From Carya illinoinensis (taxonomy: Eukaryota > Streptophyta > Magnoliopsida > Fagales > Juglandaceae): a stretch of DNA of 64,000 nt. The stretch covers positions 25,354,501 through 25,418,500 of the forward strand of contig NC_056757.1 of the NCBI RefSeq assembly GCF_018687715.1, in the 5' to 3' direction. A program made the translations under genes and the position numbers. Below the pieces are notes generated by a model. That model saw only the letters and a list, made by a program, of their open reading frames with translations. It was not told the origin of the DNA and made no database searches. Positions 43,036 to 52,368 of the stretch are shown piece by piece. Each line of letters starts with the position of its first letter. The first letter of the stretch is position 1.

Positions 43036-43773
43036 AAATAAAAAGATCGATCATTTCCAACCTAGAGAACAGATGAGAGAGAGAGTTTATCTGCAATGAA
43101 CAGATGGCACTGGGGAATTACGGAAGATGGAGGATGGGAAGGGAGTGTCAAGGCCTGTGTTCTAACGATACGCTGAAGAGGGTGTGTTGCCCAGATGACT
43201 AACACAAGAGGGGGGGTGAATTGAGTTGTATTAAAAAAAAATAACAATTATAAATCAAATATATAATATAAAATATAAACAAAATATGAAATAACAATAA
43301 ATATAAGGAGTAAGGGTAAGAGAGAAGCAAACTCAGTATGTTAACGAGGTTCGGCCCCACTGCCTACGTCCTCGCCTCAAGCTACCCCTTGAGGATTCCC
43401 AAATTCACTATTCAACCTCCTTCAGGTGGAGATAGAAACCTATTACACCTTTGAACAACACCGCTACAAAGGATCCGTGTAGAACACCCTCTACACTTGC
43501 AATCACCTTACACGTGGTGATTCAACTATTCCCTGTGTAGAATACTTTCTACACACACAAGGGTTATACACACCCTTTTTCTGATACAAAAGCTGATAGT
43601 GGGTAGGTTATCAGAAAACACTCCTCAACGAGTGAAATAAGAACAATACAGCGCAAGCTATATCTCTCAAAATGAACAAGGATTAAGGCTCAATGTTTAG
43701 AGAAGAGAGAATGAAAGCTTTGAATGAATGTTGTATGCTCTTGGTGTTGTGAATGTGAAGCTCTCAAATGATC

Positions 43774-43782
43774 TATTTATAG
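43774..43782 (-). promoter_or_regulatory. LTR TATA box (3' LTR copy)
   Basis: CTATAAATA on the minus strand, about 35 bp downstream (in element sense) of the tandem repeats; the matching site in the 5' LTR is 51617-51625. This is the likely U3/R promoter. Confidence 0.65.
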
Positions 43783-43816
43783 GCATATGAGACTTCATAT
43801 TCAAATTTAAAAAGAT

Positions 43817-43985
43817 TCACATGTCAAAGACAACATCATTCACTTTTTCAAAAAATTCAAATAAAAGGTTCTTCTTTTTCAATTGTCAAAGACAACATCA
43901 TTCACTTTTTCAAAGAATTCAAATAAAAGGTTCTTCTTTCTCAATTGTCAAAGACAACATCATTCACTTTTTCAAAAAAATCAAA
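43817..43985 (-). repeat. Three tandem ~62-bp repeats in the LTR, upstream of its TATA box
   Basis: Each unit starts TGTCAAAGACAACATCATTC (plus view) and continues CACTTTTTCAAA. The first two share GGTTCTTCTTT ends, and the third diverges after TCAAAAAAATCAAA. The array is duplicated in the other LTR at 51660-51828. Their position just upstream of the LTR promoter suits an enhancer array. In element sense each unit carries TTTGACA, close to a W-box core. Confidence 0.85.
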
Positions 43986-44525
43986 CCTAATATTTTACTT
44001 TTGGCATATGACAAAATGAGCACACTTTCATTTTCAAAAAATTCAAACCTAATCTTTTACTTTTTGTATAAGTCTAAAAAAGCATCAATCACTTTTGAAA
44101 ATATTCAAATAAAACATGCACATGTGAAAGATGACAATCAATCATCTTTAATATTTTCAAAGTTCAACCCTTTAATCAAGGCATGCACATGCAAAAGATG
44201 ACAATCAATCATCTTTCAAAATTTTCAAATTTAATTTTCAAAAATATTCATGCACATGTGGAAAATGTATTTTAATGCTTTATGATAAAATATTAATTTT
44301 GAGCATTAATCCTAATTTCGAATTTTGAAGAGATTTACAACATTACTCTATAATTTTAATGTGAACTTGTTCCCTTCTTGCTCATGCTTGTTTCCTTGAT
44401 GTGCTTGACTCCATTATGTAGACAACTTGAGCTTGAGACTTCTTTATTCTTTGAATTCATTTGTTATCATCAAAATCCATGTGTAGATTTATAATCACAT
44501 GAAACTTGAAATCTTGAGTTCAACA

Positions 44526-44715
44526 ATCTCCCCCTTTTTGATGATGACAAATATTTGATAGAACTTGAAACCTATATTAATACTTAAGCTCCCCCTGAAA
44601 ATATGCGTTAGTTTTTCAAGCAAAAGTATAAATATAATTCCAAGCATATATAACAAGTTTAGCAATTTAAACAATGTTAATGTTCTAGTCTAACACTTCT
44701 CCCCCTTTTGGCATC
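44526..44715 (-). promoter_or_regulatory. Polypurine tract and two polypurine-like repeats next to the 3' LTR
   Basis: In element sense, AAAAAGGGGGAGAT directly precedes the LTR (44526-44539). Two further purine blocks lie at about 44589-44596 (AGGGGGAG) and 44699-44708 (AAAAGGGGGAG). The tract primes plus-strand DNA synthesis; repeated GGGGGAG motifs here are a known feature of Sireviruses. Confidence 0.8.
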
Positions 44716-44917
44716 ATTAAAAAGGATCCGCAACAAGAAAATGGACTGAAGAAAACGATGCGTTTAATAGTCACTGTAGATAGTTGAAAAATGGAGCCGT
44801 CCGTGACCCGACAAGTGCTGCAAAGCCTCGAGGCCTAACTCTATGAATTTAATACGGCTGAAGATTTAAACAATCGCCTGATGTTGTTGACAAACGGGAT
44901 TGAAGGCTCCGAGTTTC

Positions 44918-44926
44918 TATAAAAAA
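44918..44926 (+). promoter_or_regulatory. TATA box of the first antisense ORF (candidate)
   Basis: TATAAAAAA lies 85 bp upstream of the ATG at 45003, on the strand opposite to gag-pol. Spacing allows a leader of about 50 nt. Confidence 0.5.
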
Positions 44927-45002
44927 ATGATCATTTTCATCTATCGGATGCCAAAAAAATAATCACTTCTTGACCTGAGTTCTGTTTTTCCACAACGATA
45001 GA

Positions 45003-45455
45003 ATGGCTGAGCAATTCTCTTCCACTAATGTTCCAGACTTGAATCAGGAACCCTTGACGCATCAATCATCAATCTTCTCTCCTGAGGCCGTCAATACCAT
45101 GATAGGAGCAGTGAACCGTTTTTCTAGTAAGGCTGATTCTGAGATTATTGCAGAATCAAGAATGCTCAGTAATCAATATGCCGCCTCTGTTACGATCATG
45201 TCTCGAAGGTTAATGGCGAGGGTGAGTGAGATTGATCATCTTAACATGCAAATATCTGAGTTACGACAGAAGCTTGCTAATAAGGATAGTGAGAATAAAA
45301 GGCTAAAGCAAGAAAACCAAGAGTTGAAAAAATTTGCAGATTGGTATGCTCATGATCTGCAACCACGAATAGAAGAGCTGGAACGAGAAAGGGTTCAGAT
45401 ACAAGGTCAACATCGGCAGATAACAGCAGAGGTTCATCGTTTACTAGAAAAATAG
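45003..45455 (+). CDS. Antisense coiled-coil ORF A inside the Sirevirus-type element
   Basis: 150 codons, opposite in direction to gag-pol, between the 3' LTR and the end of pol. I recognise no family. The N-terminal 35 residues are Ser/Pro/Gln-rich (VPDLNQEPL). They are followed by SPEAVNTMIGAVNRFSSKAD, a helical stretch with SNQYAASVTIMSRRL, and heptad-like coiled coil from about 75 to 148 (EIDHLNMQISELRQKLANKD, RLKQENQELKKF). No transmembrane segment, zinc finger or nuclease motif is seen. It has an ATG start, and a TATAAAA box lies 85 bp upstream. It resembles ORF B at 45699 in order and motif (acidic D-S/E-D, then S...S..RL, then coiled coil), so the two are probably tandem paralogues. 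It may be a captured host gene or an element-specific accessory protein; function unknown. Confidence 0.7.
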   Translation: MAEQFSSTNVPDLNQEPLTHQSSIFSPEAVNTMIGAVNRFSSKADSEIIAESRMLSNQYAASVTIMSRRLMARVSEIDHLNMQISELRQKLANKDSENKRLKQENQELKKFADWYAHDLQPRIEELERERVQIQGQHRQITAEVHRLLEK

Positions 45456-45587
45456 GGACAATCTACTGTTAATCTCGCTGGCTTAGTAAGAAAACTTTTG
45501 ACAATGTGTGTCCAGCATATCTTGTATTTCTTTTGACTAAATAAGATTTGAAGAGAAAATAGTTTGTCTTATTCTTTATGCTATCTC

Positions 45588-45594
45588 TATAAAA
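45588..45594 (+). promoter_or_regulatory. TATA box of the second antisense ORF (candidate)
   Basis: TATAAAA sits 111 bp upstream of the ATG at 45699, followed by a C/T-rich leader (TCATCTCATCTCTATAACTC) typical of plant 5' UTRs. Confidence 0.55.
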
Positions 45595-45698
45595 TCAGTC
45601 CTGAAGTTCATCTAATCCGCATCAAGTTTTCATCTCATCTCTATAACTCATTTGCATTCCTTCAGCATTCTCGTTTTAAGCCTTCTATTCTTTTCTCA

Positions 45699-46136
45699 AT
45701 GGCTCATTCTTCTAACATTTCTCTAGATCCATCCATGAGGCATTCTGCATCTCAACCTCCTGTTCTTTCTGCAGCTACCATTGGTGCCATGTTGCAGCAA
45801 GAAAATAATAATCTGACTAATAAGTCAGATTCTGATGCTATTTATGACTTGGTGAGTCTTGGGACTCGCTACTCTTCCTCTATTGTGGCTTTTTCTCAGC
45901 GGCTACAAGCCAAAAATCACGAAGTTGAAAAGCTCAAAGAACAAATTGTTGTACTTCAACAAATTGTTCAAGAGTCTCACACAAGGGAAGGAATCATTCG
46001 GCAGAAGAATAAACAGTTGAAATCTTTATTAGATTCTTCATTCCGCTTGCCGGTTCCCATGAATAAGAATGACATGATATTGTATGAAGAGAATGAGCGT
46101 CTCAAACATGAGGCTAAGAATCTCAAATTTATGTAA
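45699..46136 (+). CDS. Antisense coiled-coil ORF B inside the Sirevirus-type element
   Basis: 145 aa from the ATG at 45699. The open frame extends upstream to a TTG, but the TATA box and leader at 45588-45698 support the ATG. Order of parts: a Ser-rich N-terminus with SAATIGAMLQQENNN, then NKSDSDAIYDLVSLG, then YSSSIVAFSQRL, then coiled coil (HEVEKLKEQIVVLQQIVQES, IIRQKNKQLKSLL), ending EENERLKHEAKNLKFM. By eye it aligns with ORF A along its length, including (T/N)KSDSD versus SKADSE and SSIVAFSQRL versus ASVTIMSRRL. Its stop lies 50 bp from the pol stop, tail to tail. No known family recognised; oligomerisation through the coiled coil is the only safe prediction. Confidence 0.7.
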   Translation: MAHSSNISLDPSMRHSASQPPVLSAATIGAMLQQENNNLTNKSDSDAIYDLVSLGTRYSSSIVAFSQRLQAKNHEVEKLKEQIVVLQQIVQESHTREGIIRQKNKQLKSLLDSSFRLPVPMNKNDMILYEENERLKHEAKNLKFM

Positions 46137-46185
46137 AAGTATTAAAAAAAATCTATCTCTATTTTTATTGACTCTGGTCTATCTT

Positions 46186-49100
46186 TTAAGAGATATTCAT
46201 AGCATGCATCATACCTATTTCTCTTCTGATCATACATAATCTATCTTCTGGTAAAGGTTTTGTGAAAATATCTGCTAACTGATCGTGTGTGTTTGTGAAC
46301 TCTAACATTATATCACCTTTTTGCACATGATCTCGAAGAAAATGATACCTTATTTCAATATGCTTAGTTCTAGAATGTTGTATTGGGTTCTTTGAAAGAT
46401 TTATAGCACTTGTATTATCACATTTGATTGGAATGTGATTATACATGAGTTTAAAATCTTCAAGTTGTTGCTTCATGTAGAGAACTTGAGCACAACAACT
46501 ACCCGCAGCAACATATTCTGCCTCAGCAGTAGATAGTGCAACAGAATTTTGTTTTTTACTAAACCAGGAAACTAATGCATGACCTAAGAAATGGCATGCT
46601 CCACTAGTGCTTTTTCGATCTATTTTACAGCCAGCATAATCTGCATCTGTGTAGCTGATTAGATCGAAAGATGTGTGCTTAGGGTACCATAACCCTAAGT
46701 TAATTGTACCACTAAGATATCTAAGAATGCGCTTAACTGCAATTAAATGTGATTCTTTTGGAGATGATTGAAAACGTGCACATAAGCACACACTAAACAT
46801 AATATCTGGTCTACTGGCTGTTAAATATAATAAGCTACCAATCATACCTCGATATATCTTCGAGTCAACTGGCTTACCGGATTCATCTTTATCAAGTTTA
46901 GTTGATGGGCTCATTGGTGTTCCAATTTCCTTAGCATTTTCCATCCCAAACTTCTTCAGTAATTCCTTAATATATTTTGATTGATTGATGAATGTCCCAC
47001 TTTTTGCTTGCTTAATTTGCAATCCGAGAAAGAATGTAAGTTCACCCATCATGCTCATCTCAAATTCTTCCTGCATAGTCTTAGCAAAAACTTGACACAT
47101 ATTTTCATTAGTAGCACCGAATATTATATCATCAACATAAATCTGAATCAAAAGAATATCATCATTTTCATATTTAATGAAAAGAGTTGTGTCGATTTTT
47201 CCTCTTGAAAAACCTTTTTCAATCAAGAAACCACTGAGTCTCTCGTACCAAGCTCTAGGAGCTTGTTTAAGTCCATATAGTGCTTTTGTGAGTTTGAAAA
47301 CATGATTTGGGGAAATATGATTTTCAAAACCTGGAGGTTGCTCAACATATACCTCTTCATTTATAAAACCATTTAAGAAAGCACTTTTAACATCCATTTG
47401 AAAAAGTTTGAAATCTTTATAACAAGCATATGCAAGTAGCATTCGAATAGCTTCTAATCTTGCGACAGGTGCATATGTCTCATCATAATCGATTCCTTCT
47501 TCTTGATTAAAACCTTGGGCTACAAGTCGAGCCTTATTTCTAGTAATGACTCCAGACTCATCTTTCTTGTTTCTAAAAACCCATTTTGTTCCAATAATAG
47601 TATAATTTTTGGGTCTAGGAACAAGTGTCCAAACATCATTTCTTTCAAATTGATTCAACTCTTCTTGCATAGCTAGAATCCAAGATTCATCAAGAAGTGC
47701 GTCATCAATATTTTTGGGTTCAATTTGAGATAGAAAAGCAGTATGATTACAAATATTTCTAAGAGATGATCGAGTACTTACACCTTGTGAAGGTTCTCCC
47801 AAAATTTGTTCCACTGGATGATCTTTCACAAATTTCCACTGTTTGGTTGCATCTTGTATTAAATTTTGATGATCTTTCCTGATGGCTCCATGTTGAACTT
47901 CCTCTATTGCTTTCTCTTTGTTGAGATTGAGACTTTCTGTGTTATTTATACCTTCTATTTCTTCATCAATAGATTTCTTGGAGAGTGGAGAATTAGATTC
48001 ATCAAATACTACATGCATAGATTCTTGTACAGTTAAAGTCTTTTTGTTGAATACTCTATAAGCTTTACTATTAGTAGAATACCCGAGAAAAATACCTTCA
48101 TCAGATTTTGCATCAAACTTGCCTAAATTATCTCTGTCATTCAAAATAAAACATTTGCATCCAAATACATGAAAGTAACCAATGTTGGGCTTTTTCTCAT
48201 TCCAAAGCTCATAGGGGGTTTTATCTAATTTAGACCTTAACATAACTCTATTTATAACATAACATGCAGTACTTACCGCTTCGGCCCAAAAATAACTAGG
48301 CAAGTTGTTCTCATTGAGCATTGTTCTTGCCATCTCTTGAAGAGATCTATTTTTCCTCTCTACTACCCCATTTTGTTGAGGAGTTCGAGGAGCAGAAAAA
48401 TTATGAATAAAACCGTTTTCATCACAAAATGTTTCAATATTTTTATTAACAAATTCTTTTCCCCTATCACTTCGGATACTTGAAATAGTATAGCCCTTTT
48501 CATTTTGAATTCTCTTGCATAACTTGGTAAAGGCATTATGTGCCTCATCTTTATGAGCAAGAAAGATGACCCAAGTATATCTAGAGAAATCATCAACAAT
48601 AACAAATGCATAATATTTTCCTCCTAGACTTGCAACTCTATTTGGTCCAAAAAGATCCATGTGTATCAGTTGCAATGGTCTAGTAGTGGAAATATGTTTC
48701 TTAGTTTTAAAAGAAGTTTTTGTTTGTTTACCAAATTGACATGCATCACAAATTTTGTCTTTAAGAAAATATGTTTTTGGTAAACCTCTCACAAGATCAT
48801 TTTTTGAAAGTTTGGAAATAAGTTCCATGTTGGCATGACCTAATCTTCTATGCCATAACCAACTAGTTTCATTTTGAGCTGACAAGCAAATAGCATCTTG
48901 TGAGGTAATTTCTTCAAAATCAATTATATAAACATTATTGTTTCTAAAAGCAATAAAACAAATATTACAATCATGATCATTCAAAATAATGCATTTATCC
49001 ATTTTAAAAGTAACTGTAAATCCTTTATCACATAATTGACTTATGCTCAAAAGATTATGTTTTAAACCTTCAACAAGTAGAACATCTTCAATTATGAGAG

Positions 49101-49275
49101 AAGATTCATTACCAATTTTACCTATTCCCACGATCTTCCCTTTCGAGTTGTCTCCAAATGTCACGTGTCCTTCTTCTTTAGATCTAAGATCAAAGAACTT
49201 AGTCTTGTCTCCCGTCATGTGTCTTGAACATCCACTATCTAAAAACCACTTATTTTTACTTGTGGATGACTTCAT
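46186..49275 (-). CDS. pol: Pol polyprotein of the Sirevirus-type element (PR-IN-RT-RH)
   Basis: 1029 residues with no stop. Protease active site [10 protein letters not shown] at residues 18-27. Integrase zinc-binding HRRLGH...CDAC around 140-180; integrase core from HMDLFGP, with SDRGKEF and the following [11 protein letters not shown], around 205-310. Reverse transcriptase includes [11 protein letters not shown] and IYVDDIIFG (near residue 711). RNase H has YTDADYAGC and [11 protein letters not shown], and the protein ends HAMNIS. All catalytic motifs look intact, so the element may be able to act autonomously. It is in a different frame from gag: gag stops at 49334, 59 nt before this ATG, and a TAG lies in the pol frame 9-7 nt before the ATG. 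Pol must therefore be made by frameshift, splicing or reinitiation. Confidence 0.95.
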
Positions 49276-49333
49276 GCATACCTATAAAAACAATTAAAAT
49301 GATTTTTCTTGGTACCCAAGTTCTTTGGGTCCT

Positions 49334-50968
49334 TTATTTATTAGTATTAGAAGAAACAAGATTTTTAGGTACCCATATGGCCCTAATAGTCATTGTATGA
49401 TTTCTTCTAATAGGACAAGTATGATAATTATGACCATTTCTATTACAAAAATTACAAATAGCATGTGACATATATGAAAAACTTGAATGATTATAATAAT
49501 ATCCTTTTTTGACAAAATTATTTTTATGAAAAGAATTTTGAATATTAGTCTTTGAGGTAGAATGATTATCAAAGAAATTTTTATAAGGTTTGTATTTTTG
49601 TTTTGGCATATATCCCAAACCTGCCTTGTCAAAAACACATCTTTGACTACCAAGAAGTTTTTCAAAATTTCTTTTTCCATTCGTAAAGTTTTCAACAATA
49701 TTTTCTAAATCGGTTTTCTTCTTATTCAATTCAAGATTTTCATCTTTCAAAATGATACTTTCTTTTCTTAAAATTTCAATTTCGTTTGTTAAAGAAGAAT
49801 TTTTCTTTTTCAAAGCAGTATACTTTATACCCAATTTTTCAAATTCCTCATAAATCTCTTCTAAAACATTTTGCAATTCTTCATATGAAGGATTTTCAAT
49901 ATTATCAAGATTTGTTACCTCAATGTCATCTTTAGCCATAAGACAAAGATTTGCTGATTCTTCATTGCTTGCTTCACTATCTGAGCTACTTGAATCATCA
50001 TCCCATGTAGCTTTCATTGCTTTCTTGCCCTTGTTTCGATTTTTTTTTAGCAGAGGACAATCTGGCTTGATATGACCAGGTTTATTGCATTTATAACAAA
50101 TTAAAGTGTCGTTTTTACCTGAATCTTTCTTGAAAAACTTTTTGAAAGATTTCCTCGGAGGAGTTCTATTTTTCTTCAAGAACCTCTGAATTCTTCTTGT
50201 TATCATCGCAACTTCTTCATCTTTATCGTCATTTTCCTCATCTTCATCACTTTCACTTTCATGAGGAACAGCTTTAAGTGCTAAGCTCTTCTTTGGCTTT
50301 CCTTCTTCTTCTCCTCTTTTCAATGTGTACTCATGGGTGATAAGTGACCCGATGAGTTCATTGACTTCGAGCTTCTTGAGGTCTCTAGCTTCAAGAATCG
50401 CTGTAACTTTTGATTCCCAACGTTTTGGTAAAGAGTTGAGAATTTTTCTTACTATCTCCACCTTGGAATAAACTTTGCCAAGAGCTGTCAAGCTGTTTAT
50501 GATGTTAGTAAAACGAGTGTGCATACTAGAAATAGATTCATCATCATTCATCTTAAACATTTCATATTCATGAGTAAGAATATAAATTTTTGATTCCTTG
50601 ACTTGCGAAGTTCCTTCATAAGTTACTTCCAAGTTATCCCAAATTTCCTTTGCCGTAGCGCAATTCATTATTCTATTAAACTCATTTCCATTAAGAGCAT
50701 TATATAATAAATTCATAGCAGTTAAATTTAAAGTATAAAGTCTATCGTCTTCACGATCAAACTCTTCTTCTTCCTTTTTGACCTTTACTCCACCAACTAC
50801 TTTTGTTGGAATATAAGGTCCATTTACAATACATTTCCATATTTCTCTACCTTGAGCTTGAAGAAATATTCTCATTCTAACTTTCCAGAATGAGTAATTA
50901 TCTCCACAAAAGAGTGGAGGCCGACTACTAGATTGACCTTCACCAAATGAAGCTGCAATGTTAGCCAT
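49334..50968 (-). CDS. gag: Gag polyprotein of the Sirevirus-type element
   Basis: 544 residues. The start MANIAASFGEGQSSSRPPL, then FWKVRMRIFLQ, is the UBN2-type Copia gag. An acidic tract (SDEDEENDDKDEE, about 236-248) precedes one CCHC knuckle, CYKCNKPGHIKPDC, near 290. A Ser/Asp-rich block (DDDSSSSDSEASNEES) and a long coiled coil follow (about 345-430: LEEIYEEFEKLGIKYTALKK). A second, C-terminal cysteine motif CNFCNRNGHNYHTC lies near 505-518. Gag forms the virus-like particle that packages element RNA. Long acidic and coiled-coil C-terminal regions are characteristic of Sirevirus gag. Confidence 0.95.
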   Translation of the reverse strand: MANIAASFGEGQSSSRPPLFCGDNYSFWKVRMRIFLQAQGREIWKCIVNGPYIPTKVVGGVKVKKEEEEFDREDDRLYTLNLTAMNLLYNALNGNEFNRIMNCATAKEIWDNLEVTYEGTSQVKESKIYILTHEYEMFKMNDDESISSMHTRFTNIINSLTALGKVYSKVEIVRKILNSLPKRWESKVTAILEARDLKKLEVNELIGSLITHEYTLKRGEEEGKPKKSLALKAVPHESESDEDEENDDKDEEVAMITRRIQRFLKKNRTPPRKSFKKFFKKDSGKNDTLICYKCNKPGHIKPDCPLLKKNRNKGKKAMKATWDDDSSSSDSEASNEESANLCLMAKDDIEVTNLDNIENPSYEELQNVLEEIYEEFEKLGIKYTALKKKNSSLTNEIEILRKESIILKDENLELNKKKTDLENIVENFTNGKRNFEKLLGSQRCVFDKAGLGYMPKQKYKPYKNFFDNHSTSKTNIQNSFHKNNFVKKGYYYNHSSFSYMSHAICNFCNRNGHNYHTCPIRRNHTMTIRAIWVPKNLVSSNTNK

Positions 50969-51013
50969 AAGATCTTAACTCAAAAGATAGTTAATCTTAT
51001 AATAGAGCTCTTA

Positions 51014-51025
51014 GCTCTGATACCA
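51014..51025 (-). other. Primer-binding site of the Sirevirus-type element
   Basis: TGGTATCAGAGC in element sense, two bases downstream of the 5' LTR end, complementary to initiator tRNA-Met. Confidence 0.95.
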
Positions 51026-51027
51026 AT

Positions 51028-52368
51028 TGTTGCCCAGATGACTAACACAAGAGGGGGGGTGAATTGAGTTGTATTAAAAAAAAATAACAATTATAAATCA
51101 AATATATAATATAAAATATAAACAAAATATGAAATAACAATAAATATAAGGAGTAAGGGTAAGAGAGAAGCAAACTCAGTATGTTAACGAGGTTCGGCCC
51201 CACTGCCTACGTCCTCGCCTCAAGCTACCCCTTGAGGATTCCCAAATTCACTATTCAACCTCCTTCAGGTGGAGATAGAAACCTATTACACCTTTGAACA
51301 ACACCGCTACAAAGGATCCGTGTAGAACACCCTCTACACTTGCAATCACCTTACACGTGGTGATTCAACTATTCCCTGTGTAGAATACTTTCTACACACA
51401 CAAGGGTTATACACACCCTTTTTCTGATACAAAAGCTGATAGTGGGTAGGTTATCAGAAAACACTCCTCAACGAGTGAAATAAGAACAATACAGCGCAAG
51501 CTATATCTCTCAAAATGAACAAGGATTAAGGCTCAATGTTTAGAGAAGAGAGAATGAAAGCTTTGAATGAATGTTGTATGCTCTTGGTGTTGTGAATGTG
51601 AAGCTCTCAAATGATCTATTTATAGGCATATGAGACTTCATATTCAAATTTAAAAAGATTCACATGTCAAAGACAACATCATTCACTTTTTCAAAAAATT
51701 CAAATAAAAGGTTCTTCTTTTTCAATTGTCAAAGACAACATCATTCACTTTTTCAAAGAATTCAAATAAAAGGTTCTTCTTTCTCAATTGTCAAAGACAA
51801 CATCATTCACTTTTTCAAAAAAATCAAACCTAATATTTTACTTTTGGCATATGACAAAATGAGCACACTTTCATTTTCAAAAAATTCAAACCTAATCTTT
51901 TACTTTTTGTATAAGTCTAAAAAAGCATCAATCACTTTTGAAAATATTCAAATAAAACATGCACATGTGAAAGATGACAATCAATCATCTTTAATATTTT
52001 CAAAGTTCAACCCTTTAATCAAGGCATGCACATGCAAAAGATGACAATCAATCATCTTTCAAAATTTTCAAATTTAATTTTCAAAAATATTCATGCACAT
52101 GTGGAAAATGTATTTTAATGCTTTATGATAAAATATTAATTTTGAGCATTAATCCTAATTTCGAATTTTGAAGAGATTTACAACATTACTCTATAATTTT
52201 AATGTGAACTTGTTCCCTTCTTGCTCATGCTTGTTTCCTTGATGTGCTTGACTCCATTATGTAGACAACTTGAGCTTGAGACTTCTTTATTCTTTGAATT
52301 CATTTGTTATCATCAAAATCCATGTGTAGATTTATAATCACATGAAACTTGAAATCTTGAGTTCAACA
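51028..52368 (-). repeat. 5' LTR of the Sirevirus-type element
   Basis: 1341 bp, same length and apparently the same sequence as 43185-44525. The ORF within it at 51664-52044 gives exactly the same translation as 43821-44201. TATA box at 51617-51625; three-unit repeat at about 51660-51828. Confidence 0.97.
51617..51625 (-). promoter_or_regulatory. LTR TATA box (5' LTR copy, the element promoter)
   Basis: CTATAAATA on the minus strand. It drives the genomic RNA if the element is expressed; about 590 bp remain to the LTR end, implying a long R-U5. Confidence 0.65.

Follow-up and report, generated by a model that had tools for sequence, protein, structure and literature searches.

What are two protein-sized reading frames doing on the opposite strand of a retrotransposon that has its own open gag and pol? 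The question is raised by a 64,000-nucleotide stretch of the pecan (Carya illinoinensis) genome (NC_056757.1, positions 25,354,501 to 25,418,500; hereafter the window), in which the minus strand carries a complete Sirevirus-type Ty1/copia element at 43185..52368 (9184 bp, target-site duplication (TSD) CACCC). The interval from the pol stop (46186) to the 3′ long terminal repeat (LTR) of this element contains two open reading frames (ORFs) on the plus strand, antisense to gag-pol: ORF A at 45003..45455 (150 aa) and ORF B at 45699..46136 (145 aa), which confirms the arrangement of two antisense ORFs of 150 and 145 codons given in a preliminary description of the window. We propose, with a probability of roughly 0.6, that A and B are accessory protein-coding genes of which B is the constrained core, B-type genes being common to three element types and kept there by selection.

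ORFs A and B and their relationship

Among 5000 sequences drawn from a first-order Markov model of the region, none had two ORFs of at least 145 codons and 9 had one; chance ORFs were ruled out by the absence of any sequence with two. An env-like ORF in the sense orientation was also rejected: on the gag-pol strand, no ATG-initiated ORF between pol and the 3′ LTR exceeds 44 codons. Each ORF is preceded by a TATAAAA box, at 44918..44924 (+) for A and at 45588..45594 (+) for B, the TATAAA starting 85 bp and 111 bp ahead of the respective ATG, as previously described; upstream of B's ATG the frame stays open for 49 more codons. The upstream stretches of the two ORFs show no likeness beyond that of shuffled sequences (208 of 500 shuffles reached their score), and a promoter conserved between the two was thus not found.

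Judged by alignment, A and B are old duplicates, A being the diverged tandem copy and B a core member of the gene family. BLASTP aligns them with E = 2e-10 and 27% identity across 107 residues, and their alignment score of 116 compares with 35.3 ± 6.3 for shuffled sequences, none of 2000 shuffles reaching 116; the earlier proposal of tandem antisense duplicates is upheld by this comparison. Similarity driven by composition was ruled out by whole-sequence, heptad-preserving and windowed shuffles (0/2000 each). The N-terminal 72 residues alone score 67 against 25.6 ± 4.8 (0/2000 shuffles), and the score of the C-terminal part of the alignment was reached by 9/2000; since the N-terminal part by itself exceeds every shuffle, the duplication is independent of coiled-coil composition.

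The coiled coils that had been ascribed to both proteins are plausible for A, whose heptad score was reached by 16 of 500 shuffles, and are not borne out for B (220 of 500). The AlphaFold model of B (mean predicted local distance difference test score (pLDDT) 79.8, predicted template modeling score 0.40) places helices at residues 25-40, 44-114 (71 residues, high pLDDT) and 123-143, with a low-confidence N-terminus (1-19). Pfam matches of A all fall below the curated cut-off, the best being ZapB (PF06005), a family to which a protein database assigns P0001, a protein with 99% identity to A. B has no Pfam match at E 0.01, and the matches of B and of its homolog in the non-autonomous element described below (L083) are only below cut-off. 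A known domain was therefore rejected for A and B, the sub-cut-off matches being read as coiled-coil likeness. Transposase_28 (PF04195) was matched neither by A nor by B at E 0.01, nor by B at E 0.1, and was absent from the 25 of 43 families that were listed for 15 family members at E 0.1. A PDB sequence search with a B-type profile yielded a single match, with E 0.25.

Records named Carya illinoinensis include two relatives of B (97% and 88% identity over 79% of B), and the B-type profile search gave 21 proteins at E 0.1 or better. Everything that three protein searches retrieved was either a Carya hypothetical protein or an unnamed record; neither a named cellular gene nor a homolog of known function was among them. 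P0014 (source label 'lgn') is probably from another species, since its best-scoring matches in the pecan assembly used for the own-genome searches (G000, 674 Mb, 17 contigs) are 62-64% identical and contain stops. The pecan gene models I3843_15G138400, I3843_07G083100 and I3842_10G111900 are partial B-type ORFs called hypothetical proteins; with B-type ORFs in public pecan records, genes of elements may be counted as genes of the host.

B-type genes in two other element types

A B homolog of 142 codons, P0010 (about 54-55% identity to B), is found in repeated elements of quite another build. Thirty P0010 loci align mutually across most of 3.4 kb, and at one of them, L083, the surrounding element was read whole. 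L083 is an LTR element that lacks gag-pol and has an interior of ~2.4 kb, LTRs of 3562 bp (the left one incomplete in the stretch read, the common 3076 bp 99.9% identical), a primer-binding site (PBS), TGGTATCAGAGC, and a purine tract ahead of the right LTR. With LTRs, PBS, polypurine tract (PPT) and an interior lacking gag-pol, it resembles the large retrotransposon derivatives (LARDs). The longest ATG-initiated ORF of the interior is the antisense 142-aa B homolog at L083:4398-4826, the next (83 aa) being in sense, and the two small sense ORFs of the element matched no Pfam family. Its LTR holds a 153-aa ORF, which in L056 has 83 residues; L057, L058 and L063 have none of at least 80. The element ends and a gag remnant may be similar to those of Ty3/gypsy Tekay-type elements.

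From sequence comparison, this non-autonomous element is unrelated to the Sirevirus: blastn of L053 (3.4 kb of such an element) against the window finds only the B-type ORF and a short AT repeat in common. The motif TCTCTATAAAA, containing TATAAA, stands 108 bp before the ATG in 8/8 loci inspected, compared with 111 bp in B. The 200 bp upstream of B and of the L053 gene are similar with a score reached by 1 of 500 shuffles; for A and the L053 gene the figure is 52 of 500. Any promoter activity of B is suggested by this upstream likeness and by where the TATA box stands, and by nothing else.

The third element type was reached through P0004, which is 83% identical to B and leads to L121 and, with more flank, to L122 (one locus on C15). 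L122 consists of direct repeats of 1104 bp (99.3%) around 2.06 kb, and the interior matches window positions 44770-44817 (three times), 44856-44936 and 45559-46154, from which we take it to stem from the 3′ region of the Sirevirus, ORF A being absent. The piece of ~50 bp related to 44770-44817 stands in three tandem copies at L122:3728-3882. Neither a matching TSD nor a standard PBS was seen in L122, both ends of which can be read as TG...CA. B would be in sense in what we consider the likelier orientation of L122, and antisense placement would then not be universal. With a non-coding L122 probe, the best 40 of 1203 candidates each matched at least 843 of 921 bases, a figure that counts matches of the probe and not presence of the gene, B having been read at one such locus.

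The presence of B-type genes in two other repeated element types suggests that the module moved between elements. The preliminary description, which is sustained as to anatomy, duplication and retention, is to be amended here, the gene not being peculiar to the window's element.

Retention and substitution patterns

Retention was examined with a DNA query of the element region, for which the best 40 of 2037 first-look candidates were scored and all 40 read. Each is 100% identical (rounded) over the whole query, and the window's own copy is included. Both frames are open in 38 of these 40 near-identical copies, with a stop in A in one copy and a stop in B in another; the preliminary description had taken closed frames in every other copy as a refutation. 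The distinct substitutions (10 nonsynonymous (N), 4 synonymous (S) and 1 stop in A; 2 N, 3 S and 1 stop in B) are too few for a test of selection and would fit decay following insertion. In a search with the A protein, the best 150 of 4263 candidates scored were all 99-100% identical and 148 were stop-free, a count that is biased because these matches were ranked by protein score.

Purifying selection of moderate strength is seen in B-type genes, the ratio of nonsynonymous to synonymous divergence (dN/dS) being about 0.34 between element types, away from the value near 1 against which the preliminary description had set its proposal; for A no significant constraint was found (below). Between B and the L053-type gene, dN is 0.35 and dS 1.04 by the Nei-Gojobori method (NG86), and two other methods give ratios of 0.25 and 0.44. 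Between B and the L122 gene, the values are 0.085 and 0.318 (0.27) by NG86 and 0.097 and 0.223 (0.44) by the Yang-Nielsen method (YN00).

Within the L083 family, copies were sampled by their non-coding flank, so as not to select them by protein similarity; of the best 40 of 1836 candidates, 4 tandem duplicates were dropped and 36 copies were read. The frame is intact in 23 of the 36. Of the substitutions common to at least two copies, 44 are N and 31 S, and of the singletons 75 are N and 16 S (Fisher p = 0.00095); against an expected 2.97:1 the shared substitutions deviate (p = 0.002) and the singletons do not (p = 0.12). On a parsimony tree of the 34 distinct sequences, with the expectation taken from the same mutation spectrum, internal branches carry N 31 : S 26 versus a neutral 41.8 : 14.3 (p = 0.0011). 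We interpret the pattern, moderate as it is, as that of genes selected in replicating lineages and freer to decay once inserted. The values from the 30 P0010 loci (mean dN 0.0014, dS 0.0127) were left unused, these loci having been ranked by protein score.

L120 is a broken older Sirevirus copy in which both genes are present, A with an early stop. Compared with the window, its dN and dS are 0.027 and 0.166 for B, 0.011 and 0.073 for pol, and 0.035 and 0.044 for A; substitutions per site, at 0.078 and 0.099 in two non-coding stretches, are fewer in pol (0.023), A (0.038) and B (0.053), and indels number 5 and 0 in those two stretches and are absent from A and B. Eight older copies were assembled from L120 and 7 of 18 others, out of 19 loci of the P0014 search with open frame 194, which was taken as Sirevirus-like after L120. 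In all 8, A has stayed colinear and free of indels in the part read, which for L123 lacks the first 10 bases.

A number of observations weigh against genes kept by selection. Among the flank-chosen copies, 13 of 36 have a stop or frame break. Terminal branches (N 119 : S 61 versus 130.7 : 50.3) also lie below the neutral expectation (p = 0.08), the contrast between internal and terminal branches is not significant (p = 0.12), and stops occur at neutral frequency on both (internal 2 versus 2.8 expected, terminal 14 versus 13.0). DNA identity in the L083 family is 95-97% in the flank and mostly 90-96% in the ORF, closest copies aside, so that the ORF of the non-autonomous family is no better conserved in DNA than its flank. 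The codon positions of B against L120 give p = 0.07. The 149 stop-free frames among the 150 P0010 matches scored (the best of 4610 candidates) are a biased count, since these were ranked by protein score. For A, 5 of the 8 older copies have a stop, shared substitutions are N 16 : S 7 (p = 0.47) and single ones 42:18 against a neutral 3.18:1, and codon positions against L120 are even (p = 0.94); given these neutral-like ratios and the stops in older copies, amino-acid constraint on A is not significant. Sharing without function, by recombination and amplification, could also fit the data.

The host element, known systems and competing explanations

The window element is a young Sirevirus-type element, as had been described. 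Its 5′ LTR (51028..52368, minus strand) and 3′ LTR (43185..44525, minus strand), of 1341 bp each, are 100% identical, and gag (49334..50968, minus strand; 544 aa, with Retrotran_gag_2 and a zinc knuckle) and pol (46186..49275, minus strand; 1029 aa, with rve, RVT_2 and others) are both open, as separate ORFs, the copia-type domains Retrotran_gag_2, rve and RVT_2 scoring above the Pfam cut-off. The PBS is TGGTATCAGAGC. Sireviruses have, by definition, several AGGGGGAG octamers close to the 3′ LTR, of which the final one precedes AT and the LTR's TG (PMC2829016); three are present here on the minus strand, at 44699..44706, 44589..44596 and 44528..44535, the last being the PPT octamer and running through AT into the TG of the 3′ LTR. 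A further mark of Sireviruses, an inverted repeat at the PPT/LTR junction, has 17 bp arms (94%). Tandem repeats with a unit of ~62-67 bp lie inside the LTRs (43822-44258 and 51665-52101), and an imperfect 22 bp tandem repeat lies at the 3′ end of pol (46208-46250). Four of the 40 near-identical copies form an array at G000:C1:15282137-15306903 (L004-L007, L015-L018), with a constant spacing of 7842 bp; since this is about one LTR plus interior, the young element is probably arrayed there in tandem LTR-interior units. Match runs spaced 4.7-6.2 kb were also seen among the scored P0010 and P0004 genome matches.

Antisense extra ORFs in Ty3/gypsy elements and the sharing of accessory ORFs in rotifers are already known. 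The Ty3/gypsy ORFs, termed aORF-3R, include Grande gene23, RIRE2, Retand TRP28 and PvRetro13 ORF2, and the Grande gene is reported to have its own promoter and to encode a nuclear protein (PMC7264820, PMC11963269, PMC4093653). A and B correspond to them as antisense ORFs that lie between pol and the 3′ LTR and are kept open in most of the near-identical copies read. They differ in that the present host is a Ty1/copia Sirevirus, the ORFs are short (150 and 145 codons) and a tandem pair, TRP28 was not matched among the families listed, and the gene is common to non-autonomous elements. The sense env-like ORFs of SIRE elements (eORF-3′F) likewise lie between pol and the 3′ LTR of Sireviruses (PMC6317226), whereas A and B are on the opposite strand. 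In the available part of that survey, extra ORFs are reported in sense and predicted only at 250 codons or more (PMC6317226), a cut-off by which genes of the size of A and B would not be counted. The ORF3 modules that bdelloid rotifer elements share with Terminons are also accessory ORFs exchanged between very different retroelements (PMC5408684), but they are other proteins in another host and are not described as antisense in the accessible text. The aORF proteins of sunflower Tekay and Athila are, like A and B, conserved extras in plant LTR elements, there active ones, and the Tekay protein has been proposed to act on RNA silencing (PMC11728184); going by their description, they are other proteins. 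An antisense gene of a Sirevirus was not found in the open-licence literature searched, subscription papers being mostly outside it; a paper on AtCOPIA4 among those retrieved (PMC3036077) contains the word antisense 12 times.

If A and B are accessory genes as we propose, they would be transcribed antisense from their own promoters, with B as the constrained core gene and A as a copy without significant constraint. The module would have moved between element types by recombination and be kept by selection on replicating lineages, thereafter decaying in inserted copies. The product may act outside the Gag particle, by reducing silencing or activating the transcription of element copies. We regard such a host-facing role as possible but doubtful in itself; it is nevertheless to be favored over a function bound to a single Gag particle, since element types with and without gag-pol both keep the gene. 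For the same reason we think it improbable that the product is a particle or env-like component, a helical protein aiding the assembly, packaging or movement of particles. The mostly helical model of B, with its predicted 71-residue helix, and the sense eORFs at the same place in 74% of SIRE elements (PMC6317226) would suit that explanation, but the gene is antisense to gag-pol and no viral structural or membrane family is among the Pfam matches listed.

It is unlikely, although less so, that the stretch is kept for a role in cis, as an antisense promoter, in double-stranded RNA control or as part of the PPT region, with the ORFs incidental. Control by antisense RNA has been discussed for elements of this kind (PMC7264820), and both the conservation of the non-autonomous ORF, no higher than that of its flank, and the lack of significant constraint on A are in keeping with it. 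Against it, only the gene aligns between the Sirevirus and the non-autonomous type, with the dN/dS given above; the shared substitutions are poor in amino-acid changes; the locus of the third element keeps B without A; and the similarity upstream of B and the L053 gene is seldom reached by shuffles. Capture of a host gene by one element, from which B then spread, had been suggested in the preliminary description, and we consider it about as improbable as the particle component. Capture by plant retrotransposons is known (PMC7264820), and B is small, with a single uninterrupted frame, an ATG in a Met-Ala context and a TATA box to itself; yet the three protein searches gave no named cellular gene, and the suggestion is not supported by them. 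Own-genome searches gave thousands of first-look candidates, of which no more than 150 received a score; a single-copy source may thus lie concealed among the others.

We return to accessory genes kept by selection as the reading to be preferred. A broader version can be put forward only tentatively, with the odds somewhat against it: a mobile family of ~145-residue helical accessory proteins, each gene with its own promoter, may spread by recombination among LTR retrotransposons that are unrelated to one another, within a single plant lineage, and be kept even in non-autonomous elements that lack gag-pol and any further interior ORF of such length, because the copies carrying it would benefit, for instance through relaxed host silencing. 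The antisense extra genes of plant retrotransposons are, in the available text of one account, without established function (PMC7264820). If true, a gene under constraint in elements that lack gag-pol would separate the role of the gene from that of gag-pol, and the role would become directly testable, any benefit coming from the gene itself. Relatives of B in elements without the usual retrotransposon genes suggest a helper gene common to genomic parasites.
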